Assembly (NCBI GenBank): GCA_020832495.1
Contig: JAFIEP010000058.1
Coordinates: 1 to 36,654, forward strand
Length of the DNA: 36,654 nt
Source of the DNA: Acidimicrobiia bacterium
GTDB taxonomy: Bacteria > Actinomycetota > Acidimicrobiia > Acidimicrobiales > Acidimicrobilacustridaceae
Reading direction: 5' to 3'
Positions 31,737 through 36,654 of the stretch are shown here, in pieces (position 1 is the stretch's first letter; each line of letters opens with the position of its first letter). The translations under genes and the position numbers were made by a program. A model generated the notes under the pieces. The model saw only the letters and a list, made by a program, of their open reading frames with translations, had not been told where the DNA came from and searched no databases.

Positions 31737-34544
31737 ATGGCTCTCGCACCCGAGCGTGCCGGCATCGGCATCCGCCGCCACTTCACCACCGCTGGTGTCC
31801 ATCCCTACGACATGGTGGAGTGGGAACGCCGTGATGCGCGCATCACGAACTACCGCGACGGCTCGGTGGCGTTCGAACAGCTCGGGGTCGAGTTCCCCGT
31901 CGGGTGGTCGCTGAACGCCACCAACATCGTCGCCCAGAAGTACTTCAGGGGGACGATCGGCACGCCGGAGCGGGAGTGGTCGCTCAAGCAGGTGGCCGAC
32001 CGGGTGGTCGACACCATCACTGAGTGGGGTCGCCGCGACGGCTACTTCGTCGACGACGAGGAGGCGGACGCCTTCAGCGACGAGCTGAAGTACCTGATCG
32101 TCACCCAGCGGGTGGCTTTCAACTCGCCGGTGTGGTTCAACATCGGCGTCAACGGCGTGCCCCAGCAGGCATCGGCCTGCTTCATCTTGTCGGTCGACGA
32201 CAAGATGGATTCCATCCTCAACTGGTACGTCGAGGAGGGCACCATCTTCAAGGGCGGCTCGGGCGCCGGCATCAACCTGTCGCGCATCCGATCGTCGGTG
32301 GAGCTGCTCAAGGGAGGCGGCACGGCCTCGGGTCCGGTGTCGTTCATGCGGGGCGCTGACGCCTCGGCAGGCACCATCAAGTCGGGTGGCAAAACCCGCC
32401 GGGCCGCCAAGATGGTCATCCTCGACGTCGCTCACCCCGACATCGAGGAGTTCATCTGGTGCAAGGCCAACGAGGAGCGCAAGGCTCGTGCCCTCGAGGC
32501 AGCCGGGTTCGACATGAGCCTCGACGGCTCCGACATCACCTCCATCCAGTACCAGAACGCCAACAACTCGGTGCGGGTCACCGACGACTTCATGCAGGCC
32601 GTGGTGGATGACACCGACTGGGAACTGCGGGCCGTCACCACTGGTGAGGTGGTGCGCTCCGTGCGGGCCCGCGACCTCATGCGCCAGTTCGCCCAGGCCA
32701 CCTGGGAGTGCGCCGATCCGGGCATGCAGTACGACACCACCATCAACCGTTGGCACACCGCTGCCAATACCGGCCGCATCAACGGATCCAACCCGTGCAG
32801 TGAGTACATGCACCTCGACAACTCGGCGTGCAACCTGGCCAGCCTGAACCTGCTGAAGTTCCTCAACGACGACGAGGACGTCTTCGACGTCGACGGCTTC
32901 CGGGCCGCGGTGGAGGTCACCTTCACCGGCCAGGAGATTCTGGTGGGCAACGCCGACTACCCGACCGAGTCGATCGCGGAGACTTCCCGTCGCTTCCGTC
33001 AGTTGGGCCTCGGCTACGCCAACCTCGGCGCCATGCTCATGGCGTTGGGCCTGCCCTACGACTCCGACGGCGGTCGGGCCTGGGCCGGTGCCATCACGGC
33101 GCTCATGACCGGCCACGCCTACGCCACCAGCGCTCGTACCGCAGCACGCATGGGGCCCTTCGCCGGCTTCAGTGAGAACGAGGAGCACATGCTCCGGGTG
33201 CTCGACATGCACCGTGAGGAGGCCGCCGGCATCGACGAGGAACTGGTGCCCGCCGACCTGCTGGGCGCCGCCCAGGAAGCGTGGGACGACGCCTGCGAGA
33301 CGGCCAGCACCTACGGGGTCCGCAACTCGCAGGCCTCGGTGCTCGCCCCAACCGGCACCATCGGGCTGATGATGGACTGCGACACCACCGGCATCGAGCC
33401 CGACCTGGGGCTGTGCAAGATGAAGAAGTTGGTGGGTGGTGGCACCATGACCATCGTCAACCAGACGGTGCCCCGGGCGCTGCGCCGGCTCGGCTACGAC
33501 CCGACGCAGGTCGGCGAGATCGTGGCCTACATCGACGAGAACAAGTCGATCCTCGGCGCCCCGCACCTCGACCCCGACCACGTGGCCGTGTTCGCCTGCT
33601 CGATGGGGGACAACCCCATCCACTACCTGGGTCACGTCCGCATGATGGCGGCGGTGCAGCCGTTCATCTCCGGCGCCATCTCGAAGACGGTGAACATGCC
33701 CGAGGAGGCGTCCGTCGAGGACGTCGAGCAGTTGCACATCGACGCCTGGCAGATGGGCCTCAAGGCCGTTGCCGTCTACCGCGACAACTGCAAGGTGGCC
33801 CAGCCCCTTGCCATGGCGAAGAAGGAAGGGTCCACCGACGACGCTCCGGCGGCGGCCACCCAGGTGGTGGAGAAGATCGTCGAGCGGGTCATCAACGAAC
33901 CCATCCGCGAGAAGCTGCCCCGGTCGCGTACCTCGCGCACCTTCGAGTTCCGGGTGGCCGACTGCAAGGGCTTCGTCACCGTCGGTGAGTACGAGGACGG
34001 GCGTCCCGGCGAGATCTTCCTGCGGGTCTCCAAGCAGGGTTCCACCCTCTCGGGGATCATGGATGCGTTCGCCATCTCGGTCAGCCACGGCCTGCAGTAC
34101 GGCGTGCCGCTGCGCAGCTTCGTGGAGGCGTTCACCGGCATGCGCTTCGAGCCTGCAGGCATGACCGACGACCCCGACATCCGCATCGCCAATTCGCTGA
34201 TGGACTATCTGTTCCGCAAGATGGCCATCATGTACCTGACCCCCGAGGAGCGGGCCGAGCTCAACATCTTCACCACCGCCGAGCGCACCCAGCCCACGCT
34301 CCCGGGTGTGGAGGAGACGGTCACCGAGACCCACATGGGCTCCGAGGTACAGGCCGATCCGCCGAGCATCGAGTCGGCCAGCTCGCTGGCTACCCGCATG
34401 GAACGTTCCGGTGGCGGCCGCCGGGTGGAGCCCACGGTCAAGGGCGCGGATGCCCCCATGTGCATGCAGTGCGGCGTACAGATGGTGCGGGCAGGCTCCT
34501 GCCACGCCTGCCCCAGCTGCGGCAGCACCAGCGGCTGCAGCTGA
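31737..34544 (+). CDS. nrdJ: Vitamin B12-dependent (class II) ribonucleoside-diphosphate reductase
   Basis: Adenosylcobalamin-dependent reductase that makes deoxynucleotides with or without oxygen; 935 residues from ATG 31737, the usual length for the long actinobacterial form. Key residues: QASACFIL with redox Cys148, SGAGINLSRIRSS (~175-187), SNPCSEYM with Asn352, radical Cys354 and Glu356, and DNSACNLASL with second redox Cys365. LAPTGTIGLMMDCDTTGIEPDLGL is also typical. The end is a Cys-rich zinc ribbon (CMQCG...CHACPSCGS, Cys909-Cys928) plus a terminal Cys934 that could shuttle electrons. Shine-Dalgarno AGAAGGA (31722-31728) lies eight bases before ATG. Regulation by NrdR is likely from the upstream box. 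No nrdR gene is adjacent. Confidence 0.96.
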   Translation: MALAPERAGIGIRRHFTTAGVHPYDMVEWERRDARITNYRDGSVAFEQLGVEFPVGWSLNATNIVAQKYFRGTIGTPEREWSLKQVADRVVDTITEWGRRDGYFVDDEEADAFSDELKYLIVTQRVAFNSPVWFNIGVNGVPQQASACFILSVDDKMDSILNWYVEEGTIFKGGSGAGINLSRIRSSVELLKGGGTASGPVSFMRGADASAGTIKSGGKTRRAAKMVILDVAHPDIEEFIWCKANEERKARALEAAGFDMSLDGSDITSIQYQNANNSVRVTDDFMQAVVDDTDWELRAVTTGEVVRSVRARDLMRQFAQATWECADPGMQYDTTINRWHTAANTGRINGSNPCSEYMHLDNSACNLASLNLLKFLNDDEDVFDVDGFRAAVEVTFTGQEILVGNADYPTESIAETSRRFRQLGLGYANLGAMLMALGLPYDSDGGRAWAGAITALMTGHAYATSARTAARMGPFAGFSENEEHMLRVLDMHREEAAGIDEELVPADLLGAAQEAWDDACETASTYGVRNSQASVLAPTGTIGLMMDCDTTGIEPDLGLCKMKKLVGGGTMTIVNQTVPRALRRLGYDPTQVGEIVAYIDENKSILGAPHLDPDHVAVFACSMGDNPIHYLGHVRMMAAVQPFISGAISKTVNMPEEASVEDVEQLHIDAWQMGLKAVAVYRDNCKVAQPLAMAKKEGSTDDAPAAATQVVEKIVERVINEPIREKLPRSRTSRTFEFRVADCKGFVTVGEYEDGRPGEIFLRVSKQGSTLSGIMDAFAISVSHGLQYGVPLRSFVEAFTGMRFEPAGMTDDPDIRIANSLMDYLFRKMAIMYLTPEERAELNIFTTAERTQPTLPGVEETVTETHMGSEVQADPPSIESASSLATRMERSGGGRRVEPTVKGADAPMCMQCGVQMVRAGSCHACPSCGSTSGCS

Positions 34545-34573
34545 CGCAGATGGGCAGGTGCTGTCTCCGACGA

Positions 34574-34604
34574 CTGACGGGGATGCGATCTGAGTGGCTA
34601 GACT
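34574..34604 (+). promoter_or_regulatory. Probable promoter of the reverse transcriptase gene
   Basis: CTGACG (34574-34579) and TAGACT (34599-34604), 19 bases apart, lie in the 83-base gap after nrdJ. The start of transcription would be near 34611, giving a very short leader, so the RT gene need not depend on nrdJ read-through. Confidence 0.4.
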
Positions 34605-34617
34605 CGCTTGCCGCTCA
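34591..34617 (+). repeat. Hairpin directly before the RT Shine-Dalgarno
   Basis: TGAGTGGC (34591-34598) and GCCGCTCA (34610-34617) can form an eight-pair RNA stem (one G-U) with loop TAGACTCGCTT. The loop holds the proposed -10 and the stem ends five bases before AGGAGG. It may be the nrdJ terminator, an operator or part of a small structured RNA tied to the RT. Confidence 0.45.
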
Positions 34618-34622
34618 CAAGT

Positions 34623-34630
34623 AGGAGGTG
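34623..34630 (+). promoter_or_regulatory. Perfect Shine-Dalgarno overlapping the only in-frame GTG of the RT gene
   Basis: AGGAGGTG is fully complementary to the 16S rRNA 3' end. The GTG at 34628 lies inside it and an in-frame TAG (34622-34624) blocks any earlier start, so initiation should occur about 34634-34638, where no standard in-frame start codon exists. Confidence 0.5.
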
Positions 34631-36148
34631 TTTCAATCGAACAGAGTTCTTACCCCTCGTGACCTGAAGGGTGGCCACCTCCCGGGGCGCCGTGAACTTG
34701 AACTCGCGGCGAACGCAAGTCGGGACTGGGCACAGTCGCGCGACATTCCGGACCCCCTGGGATTCGCCGACCTTGCCCACGACGCTGAACTCCTACGGGA
34801 CGTCGTGAAGCAGCGTGCAATTGGCGGCCGGTTTCCCCGCCGGGTCGTCCGTTGTCCACTCCCCAAGCGGGGTGGCCTCCGCGTCATCAGCTGCCTGGAC
34901 CCAATCGATGAAATCGCGCTTCGCGTCCTGGTCGGTCGGTGCGTTCCCGCCATCTCGCAGAAGCTGATCGGGGGCGCGGTACTCAGCCACCCACTTACGA
35001 GCACCGATCAGGGCTGGCAGTACGTCGACCATCGGGAGGCCGCCCGCCGTCGTCGAGAGCAGGGCTTGGTCCTGCTACGCGATACGCAATGTGCAGGGCT
35101 CGGCACCTTCGACGTAACGAACTACTACGGGTCAGTTGACCTTGGTCGGTTAGGAGGCGCATTGGGAGGCGCCCCACCTGGAGCTGTCGATGCACTCATC
35201 GAGATCCTTAGGGCGCTGCCCGGAGCCGGAGGGTGCTCCGGACTCCCAGTCGGCTTTGAAGGTTCGGGTTGCCTCGGTGGCGTGTACCTGTTGCCAGCCG
35301 ATCAAGTGTTGGCGAGCCGGCGGCTGGGCCTGATCCGCTGGACAGATGACAGCTGGCTGTTCCTGCGGCGGAGGGTTGACTGGCACGACGCGTTGAACGA
35401 GTACGAGGATCGCCTCGAGGCTCTTGGACTCCAACTGAATCGAGACAAGTCAGCGTTCCACTCGAAGCTCTTCCACGACCCAGAGTCGATCATCTCCAAT
35501 GGCACTATTGATTCGATCGTGGTGGAGGGCGAGCCGGTGGATGTCGATGCCGGCCGTCGACTGTTGCTCGAGGAACTCGACCGACCCGACAGTGACGTCG
35601 ACTTCACGGTACTCCGCTTCGCTCTCAAGTCACTTGAGCGGGAGCTGCCGCCCGACACGGCAGCGATCGTGGTCGACAACCCACGCTTGTGGTCGCTCGT
35701 CCCGAAGGAGTGCGGCGACCTGCTGGGGCAGCTCGCTCGCGTCCGGTCAGGACGCCGACAGATCGACGAGGGTTGGCTCATCGAGCGGATCACATCTCCG
35801 TGTGAGGTTCCGGCCGAGGTCGCAGGAAAGGTGCACGCCGCTCGTGTCGCAACCAAGCTCAGACTTGGAGCGGCGGCAGGTGAGGAGCTACACGGGGTGG
35901 CCACGTCCGCTGAGCCTGGCCACTACCCAGTCCGGCCAATGGCAGCGCTCGCGTGGACCAAGTCCGATCACTGGAAGCCGAGTCGTGCCGTGGAGGGGGC
36001 ACTCGACGCGGGCCATTTGACCCTCCAGCGCTCCTTCATCGCCGGCTTCAAGAAGCGGTCCGACTACAAGGCGAGGCAGAAGGATTGGAAGCGGCTCCGG
36101 GCAGAGGAGCCCGATCTGGCGCCGACCCTTGCGTGGGCCGCCGCTTGA
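34628..36148 (+). CDS. Stand-alone reverse transcriptase, candidate Abi/Unknown-Group-type defence RT
   Basis: RNA-directed DNA polymerase of ~506 residues. Fingers/palm blocks: RVVRCPLPKRGGLRVISCLDPIDEIALRVLV (~72-102), motif A GTFDVTNYYGSV with catalytic Asp162, motif B SGLPVGFEGSGCLGGVYLLPAD (204-225), motif C LIRWTDDSWLF with Asp240-Asp241 (Trp in place of the usual Tyr of YxDD), and motif D LQLNRDKSAF (269-277). After the palm there are ~225 further residues, mostly helical (FTVLRFALKSLERELPP, DLLGQLARVRSGRRQIDEGWLIERI, a basic RSFIAGFKKRSDYKARQKDWKRL end), instead of a maturase X/HNH domain; this resembles Abi and 'Unknown Group' RTs with helical C-terminal repeats. No retron NAxxH/VTG blocks, no intron RNA, no diversity-generating variable repeat. 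Codon use is visibly richer in A/T-ending codons than neighbours, and an IS3 element follows, so transfer is likely. Function in phage defence is inference. Confidence 0.8.
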   Translation: MFQSNRVLTPRDLKGGHLPGRRELELAANASRDWAQSRDIPDPLGFADLAHDAELLRDVVKQRAIGGRFPRRVVRCPLPKRGGLRVISCLDPIDEIALRVLVGRCVPAISQKLIGGAVLSHPLTSTDQGWQYVDHREAARRRREQGLVLLRDTQCAGLGTFDVTNYYGSVDLGRLGGALGGAPPGAVDALIEILRALPGAGGCSGLPVGFEGSGCLGGVYLLPADQVLASRRLGLIRWTDDSWLFLRRRVDWHDALNEYEDRLEALGLQLNRDKSAFHSKLFHDPESIISNGTIDSIVVEGEPVDVDAGRRLLLEELDRPDSDVDFTVLRFALKSLERELPPDTAAIVVDNPRLWSLVPKECGDLLGQLARVRSGRRQIDEGWLIERITSPCEVPAEVAGKVHAARVATKLRLGAAAGEELHGVATSAEPGHYPVRPMAALAWTKSDHWKPSRAVEGALDAGHLTLQRSFIAGFKKRSDYKARQKDWKRLRAEEPDLAPTLAWAAA

Positions 36149-36392
36149 GAGTTGCCGACGGGGCGGTCAGGCCGAAGGGCCGGGGCCCGCGTTGGCTCCT
36201 GAGACATCCGCGGCGGCCGTCTCCTCTGCAATCCCTGATTGAGGCGCAACTGCTTTCCCGGCTCCGCGTCGCCCCCACGGTGTCGAGGTCGCATGGGTCG
36301 CCACAGCGTTCGATCGCTCGCGTGTCCTCGAGTACCACTGAGCCAGGGGCTGGACGGATCACGGAAGGGTGAGGCTCGCCTCGACCGGTACG
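36149..36392. other. Non-coding stretch between RT gene and IS3 end
   Basis: No supported gene. GGCC-GAAG-GGCC (36170-36181) followed by GGGCC-GG-GGCCC (36178-36189) are overlapping hairpins 20-40 bases after the RT stop and may terminate it. GAGAC and GTCTC (36201-36222) form a further weak stem. The rest shows nothing recognisable, but it could hold a small RNA linked to the RT. Confidence 0.4.
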
Positions 36393-36413
36393 TGTCAAGG
36401 GGGATGAGACAAC
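36393..36413. repeat. IS3-family terminal inverted repeat
   Basis: TGTCAAGGGGG followed by ATGAGACAAC reads inward from the element's outer edge toward the transposase. The TG-initiated end and closeness to the transposase stop are typical of IS3-family right ends. Confidence 0.6.
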
Positions 36414-36416
36414 TTC

Positions 36417-36654
36417 TTACGCGGATTGGATGAGTGCTTCTCGGTTGGGTTCGTTGATCCACGCGACCTCCGGGAGTTTCGGTGGCGTGGGTGGTTGGTG
36501 GCGGAATCGGGCTGGGTTCGCGTTGTAGGCGGCGGTGAGCGTCTCGGCTCGAGCAGCTCGGATCTCGGTGGCGGTGCCGTAGTGCACCGACGCTGGGGTG
36601 TGAAGCCCGATGCCGGCGTGCCGGTGAACGTGGTTGTAGTGGTCGAAGAACGTC
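36417..36654 (-). CDS. IS3-family transposase (OrfB, integrase catalytic domain), C-terminal part
   Basis: Partial; begins beyond the window end. The visible 79 residues read TFFDHYNHVHRHAGIGLHTPASVHYG, then TATEIRAARAETLTAAYNANPARF and RHQPPTPPKLPEVAWINEP, ending at TAA (36419-36417). The YN..RxHxGIGxxTP..VHYG block is the standard end of DDE IS3/IS150-type OrfB, just after the catalytic Glu. This part appears intact; whether the element is complete is unknown. Confidence 0.85.
   Translation of the reverse strand, partial: TFFDHYNHVHRHAGIGLHTPASVHYGTATEIRAARAETLTAAYNANPARFRHQPPTPPKLPEVAWINEPNREALIQSA

Follow-up and report, generated by a model that had tools for sequence, protein, structure and literature searches.

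An intact reverse transcriptase of an uncatalogued Acidimicrobiales lineage, probably a defence gene built like class 1 DRT/Abi polymerases

A reverse transcriptase (RT) gene near the end of a contig from an Acidimicrobiia bacterium raises the question of which kind of RT it encodes and whether it serves in defence against phages. An initial annotation, made from the sequence alone, had likened this stand-alone RT to the UG/Abi (DRT) enzymes and put it forward as a candidate for a new system. In this study, the gene, its predicted fold, its relatives and their neighbourhoods were analysed. The window, that is, the whole stretch of DNA analysed, is one entire contig (C86, 36,654 bp) of a 4.46-Mb draft genome, and its right-hand part holds the following features:

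31743..34544 (+), nrdJ, class II (B12-dependent) ribonucleotide reductase, ending 83 bp upstream of the RT gene (locus comparison)
34623..34628 (+), AGGAGG, possible ribosome-binding site (best candidate), overlapping the GTG (sequence)
34628..36148 (+), reverse transcriptase gene, 506 aa, GTG start (ORF translation, Pfam and PADLOC matches)
36417..36653 (-), C-terminus of an IS3-like transposase, cut by the contig end (homology)

The RT open reading frame is intact (34628-36148, forward strand, 506 aa, stop included). Its GTG start lies closely behind an in-frame TAG at 34622, and the exact start is slightly uncertain because the AGGAGG overlaps the GTG. The identity of the product is well beyond chance: Pfam RVT_1 matched at E 3.6e-5 with 24 bits (below the gathering cut-off of 29.6), and the PADLOC UG RT models matched at E down to 9e-21. 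The gene had been thought to possess its own promoter, which was not borne out by a scan of positions 34450-36654 limited to sigma-70-like sites (0 found, 0.2 expected); a TAGACT is located approximately 25 bp upstream of the start. The foreign-looking codon use was confirmed, with a GC3 of 0.72 in the RT gene against 0.92 in the adjoining nrdJ. The GC3 of the RT relatives is likewise low (0.59-0.74), thereby indicating that low GC3 goes with the RT gene. Homologues of the transposase are 60-73% identical, and one of them is annotated as a DDE transposase. A second copy of the insertion sequence, 99% identical, ends contig C147 (window 36400-36654 versus G000:C147:75474-75728), and both contigs stop at the same base of the copy in the same orientation; the assembly therefore broke at a repeat. 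The adjacent IS3 element of the initial annotation thus exists as a partial transposase, but its link to the RT is mere adjacency at a broken contig end.

The following parts of the RT were delimited:

34688..34822 (+), N-terminal helices, residues 21-65 approximately, with the family signature D-x-P-D-x5-D (D39, P41, D42, D48) (alignment, model)
35111..35134 (+), motif A, DVTNYYGS, with catalytic D162 (sequence, alignment)
35240..35278 (+), motif B, GLPVGFEGSGCLG, residues 205-217 (sequence, alignment)
35339..35350 (+), motif C, W238-T-D240-D241, catalytic pair (sequence, alignment)
35423..35449 (+), motif D, LGLQLNRDK, with K274 (sequence, alignment)
35543..36142 (+), C-terminal HEAT/ARM-like helical repeat domain, residues 306-505 (predicted models, fold comparison)

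Motifs A-D, the three catalytic aspartates (D162, D240 and D241), K274 and a palm fold place the protein in the RT superfamily. As initially annotated, all palm motifs are present, and D162, GLPVGFEGSG, D240-D241 and K274 are invariant or nearly so in ten relatives. Tyr167 of motif A occupies the usual steric-gate position, where every relative has Tyr or Phe; an aromatic residue at this position fits the use of dNTPs. The Trp of motif C had been regarded as unusual, and this view was abandoned: WxDD is the form in 4 of the 10 members of the family, and many further RTs related to them share it. The corresponding site of AbiK, which Trp238 occupies in the window RT, is Tyr245, a residue that stacks on the product DNA (PMC9508834). 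Elsewhere, a second unassigned clade of 13 RTs was observed (L003-L010, L012, L013, L016, L020 and L028; families f21 and f58), in which nearly all members carry RWVDD in motif C and are often just 230-310 aa long; the two members scanned reach at most 71-100 bits on the Drt8 model.

The fold was predicted with AlphaFold2 from a 10-sequence alignment, and the full-chain model reached a pLDDT of 81 and a pTM of 0.84. Residues 306-505 are predicted to be helices throughout (pLDDT about 80-96), and residues 300-506 modelled alone (pLDDT 89) match alphaRep and armadillo-like solenoids at Z 13-14.6, values that indicate the kind of fold rather than kinship. The helical C-terminus noticed at the outset is thus predicted to be an alpha-repeat domain. 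The model was compared with solved structures using VIA-align and, additionally, Foldseek. Whole-chain matches were confined to class 1 UG/Abi polymerases, namely, DRT6 (Z 19.0, 439 residues, rmsd 4.5), AbiA (Z 18.9, 393 residues, rmsd 4.0), DRT4 (Z 17.2, 419 residues, rmsd 4.3), UG15 (Z 15.6, 424 residues, rmsd 4.3), AbiK (Z 14.4, 424 residues, rmsd 4.5) and Abi-P2 (Z 14.4, 395 residues, rmsd 5.0). The group II intron RT, the DGR RT, DRT9 and DRT2 gave similar Z values, yet only 231-294 residues were aligned, which is essentially the palm (DRT9 Z 16.5, DRT2 Z 14.9), and the matches to the two class 2 DRTs end near residue 300-330. By sequence, the solved structures gave no match to a single-sequence search and matched a profile over the palm alone. 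The nearest known systems in build are DRT4 (UG15) and DRT6, the latter presumably UG12, which share with the window RT a single gene of approximately 500 aa, the whole-chain fold and the helical C-terminus; they have no RNA partner, and none was seen in the flanks of the window RT and its relatives. They differ in that identity is 11-13% and the profile match is confined to the palm. In AbiK, AbiA and Abi-P2 (11-12% identity), a helical domain likewise comes after the palm and fingers. Class 1 DRTs are described by an alpha-repeat C-terminal architecture (PMC13174585), and a C-terminal alpha-helical HEAT-like repeat domain is found in the predicted model of the window RT.

The lineage was then placed against catalogued RT groups. 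The window RT scored 72 bits on UG23, 64 on UG22, 62 on Drt8 (which we take to be UG7), 55 on UG21, 47 on UG20, 42 on UG33 and 32 on UG32, and its relatives scored 50-112 bits on UG23. Ten other RTs were used to calibrate the PADLOC models. Matched to the model of their own group, true members aligned over most of the model and scored 235-560 bits (UG19 560; UG22 482, 312 and 235; Drt8 457; UG21 444; UG33 425 bits). Members of other groups still reached 99-162 bits on UG23. The window RT and its relatives are thus at or below the background of this model, and the UG23 label is not warranted; scores of 32-64 bits likewise speak against membership in UG22, Drt8, UG21, UG20, UG32 or UG33, although UG23, UG22, Drt8 and UG21 are the best sequence profiles. 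Judged by profile scores, the lineage fits no group of PADLOC, a catalogue dated 2023 after which further groups may have been described. A group II intron RT was rejected (24 bits against a maturase model cut-off of 300, and no Rfam match in the window). For a retron, there was no Rfam match, in a database from which many retron RNAs are absent, and no retron model among the best 25. The earlier views that the RT has no place in the known retron, intron or DGR families and that it is a stand-alone UG/Abi (DRT)-type RT are in agreement with these profile matches and with the whole-chain fold. The suggestion of a new system went too far: the lineage is absent from PADLOC, but fold and gene organisation point to the class 1 DRT/Abi mode, hence to a new lineage of a known kind of system.

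Relatives were sought in 396 genomes across the phylum, in 198 and 397 genomes across the order and in one scan of 84,980 species, and approximately 10 family members were obtained, all from Acidimicrobiales. Besides the window RT, these are L067, L068 and L069 (G479), L070 (G431), L071 (G420), L077 (G611), L078 (G599), L080 (G585) and the more distant L072 (G263). The relatives are 25-36% identical to the window RT at the protein level. A single-sequence scan of genome contigs revealed no relative, and an alignment-based scan revealed four. The family forms one clade (SH-aLRT 98) in a palm tree of 61 RTs, all of them from Actinomycetota. Close pairs have a dN/dS of 0.24-0.38 by a simple counting method, and the lineage is under purifying selection. 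No close relatives were found in collections of viral contigs, phages and plasmids, in which the plasmid matches to one RT relative were intron RT palms only. G479 has three RT copies in three different settings (L067:506-2029, L068:8939-10447 and L069:2407-3570), and the third is truncated after motif D. In G231:C292 (L073), a UG-type RT with a best score of 188 bits on UG32 is divided between two ORFs and is probably frameshifted, and G187 contains three RT copies of equal score (C34, C38 and C40), possibly introns.

The neighbourhoods of these relatives bear on a role in defence. PDC-S11 is located 15 bp upstream of the RT in L067, with Wadjet JetB and JetC downstream, and DndB is located 25 bp upstream in L068, with Shango SngABC downstream. 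L078 has the same DndB as L068 and is not independent of it, since both belong to the same genus. A helicase and a DUF2290 protein lie upstream in L077, and RmrA, which by its name we take to be RosmerTA, lies upstream in L069. No PADLOC match was obtained among the neighbour genes scanned in L070 and L080. The window RT itself has no visible defence neighbour; the genes on its visible side are housekeeping, and whatever lay to its right is cut off where the contig ends. In total, defence neighbours were found in 4 independent settings among approximately 8 readable loci, compared with 1 of 27 control genes, a comparison of small numbers in which the control is one gene per locus and each RT contributes several neighbours. 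The controls were the genes downstream of nrdJ in other Acidimicrobiales, taken from automatic gene calls and scanned with PADLOC. The expectation that relatives would reside in defence islands was therefore upheld by the survey. At L113, AbiEi/AbiEii adjoin an RT fragment with a weak match.

The RT is best explained, by analogy with characterised enzymes, as a single-gene anti-phage polymerase of the class 1 UG/Abi (DRT) type that probably acts in abortive infection through untemplated, probably protein-primed DNA. This explanation is based on the catalytic site, the fold, purifying selection, defence neighbours and flanks in which no conserved RNA was found. Class 1 enzymes are template-free and protein-primed (PMC9508834, PMC13174585, PMC13213688); the analogy is drawn with AbiK (PMC9508834) and DRT4/DRT6 (PMC13213688, PMC13314766). 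By this analogy, the RT would assemble into an oligomer through its helical domain, as AbiK and DRT4/DRT6 do, would polymerise dNTPs without a nucleic-acid template and would start DNA synthesis from a side chain of its own protein. On infection, the DNA would accumulate or be stabilised, and it would stop the phage from replicating, either through damage to the infected cell or through the capture of DNA-binding factors; the gene would travel as mobile one-gene cargo. A predicted fold like that of DNA-making enzymes is no proof that synthesis is template-independent, and class 3 DRTs too are template-free. Primers differ among DRTs (Ser402 in DRT1, Tyr666 in DRT3b). The priming residues Tyr44 of AbiK and Tyr61 of Abi-P2, which lie in the N-terminal loop, are without counterpart in the window RT, in which no N-terminal Tyr of this type was found and the first Tyr is at position 132. 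In a further difference from DRT4 and DRT6, the family, counted with the window RT, shares no Tyr outside the palm. A search for conserved Tyr/Ser/Thr primers gave weak candidates only, positions 446 and 500, which are S/T in most members.

Alternatively, the RT might copy an RNA template like the class 2 enzymes DRT2, DRT9 and DRT10, from an ncRNA that has diverged, is distant or lies within the coding region. The likeness of the palm to those of DRT9 and DRT2 and the downstream gaps of roughly 230-430 bp in several RT loci are consistent with such a plan. DRT9 and DRT2 need an ncRNA in cis, and none was found at the window RT. No conserved non-coding RNA emerged near the homologues: both flanks of the relatives were aligned without any conservation, Rfam gave no match in the window, and the 3' flank of the window folds no better than shuffled sequences (z 0.81). 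Upstream gaps are just 15 bp in L067 and 25 bp in L068, thereby leaving no room for an RNA upstream in these loci. The missing flanking RNA would argue against the class 2 plan, with the limit that a fast-changing or distant RNA could escape these tests, and the C-terminal alpha-solenoid of the model is of the class 1 type; we consider RNA templating unlikely. The same solenoid speaks against a derived intron, retron, DGR or CRISPR RT, an origin to which the general likeness of RT palms (Z 13-19) might point. With UG/DRT groups as the best models, the intron score far below its cut-off, no Rfam family, intron RNAs included, matched in the window and no retron or DGR partner noticed near the relatives, such a derivation is scarcely credible. 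The foreign GC3, the adjoining transposase, the patchy distribution, the truncated L069 relative and a window without visible defence gene would suit mobile cargo without present function here, or a housekeeping RT that serves something other than defence. Against this reading, which we regard as very improbable, stand the intact ORF and catalytic residues, the dN/dS of the relatives well under 1 and the defence genes beside them in four independent settings.

The position behind nrdJ introduces a further alternative, in which the RT works together with the ribonucleotide reductase (RNR): it would consume or sense the dNTPs that NrdJ supplies or be driven by them, and in some of the lineage the two genes would make up a single module. 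In 2 of 10 loci, the RT comes immediately after nrdJ in the same orientation, with a gap of 83 bp in the window and about 157 bp in G431, which belongs to another family of Acidimicrobiales, and the downstream genes vary at the other nrdJ loci read. Two of ten RT copies behind the same gene would rarely be expected by chance. The nrdJ 3' end was rejected as a defence hotspot, given that the downstream genes were varied and 1 of 27 matched a defence model. Phage escape mutations against DRT9 fall in viral RNR genes, tying that defence to the dNTP pool (PMC12483538), which makes the nrdJ link worth testing. The partnership is nonetheless unlikely: the other relatives are not near nrdJ, and nrdJ is present in nearly all Acidimicrobiales and works without the RT. 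Furthermore, the two nrdJ-linked RTs are not clearly one clade; they are sisters on the palm tree (SH-aLRT 91), but the full-length tree separates them, and a common clade is neither supported nor rejected (AU p 0.147). The adjacency may reflect no more than an old insertion that both loci share. A coupled module in which dNTPs from NrdJ feed the polymerase or are sensed by it, phage rewiring of the nucleotide pool is the trigger and the primer residue is novel would be a long shot. The nrdJ of G431 (L070:10607-17350) is an open frame of more than 2,200 aa whose conserved parts are widely separated, a layout expected from inteins, and several other Acidimicrobiales nrdJ genes look alike.

Overall, the RT is real and intact, is probably a functional defence RT of an uncatalogued lineage and, by analogy, most likely works like the class 1 DRT/Abi polymerases after which it is built. 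With this finding, the class-1-like defence RTs gain a lineage that was encountered here in Acidimicrobiales alone; the DNA products of these RTs vary by family, from random DNA in DRT4 to alternating repeats in DRT3b. The PADLOC models miss this lineage, and defence surveys are therefore likely to overlook or misname similar genes. How such enzymes start and choose nucleotides can usefully be tested on a lineage that lacks the known primer Tyr, and the linkage with nrdJ offers a testable hint about dNTP supply.
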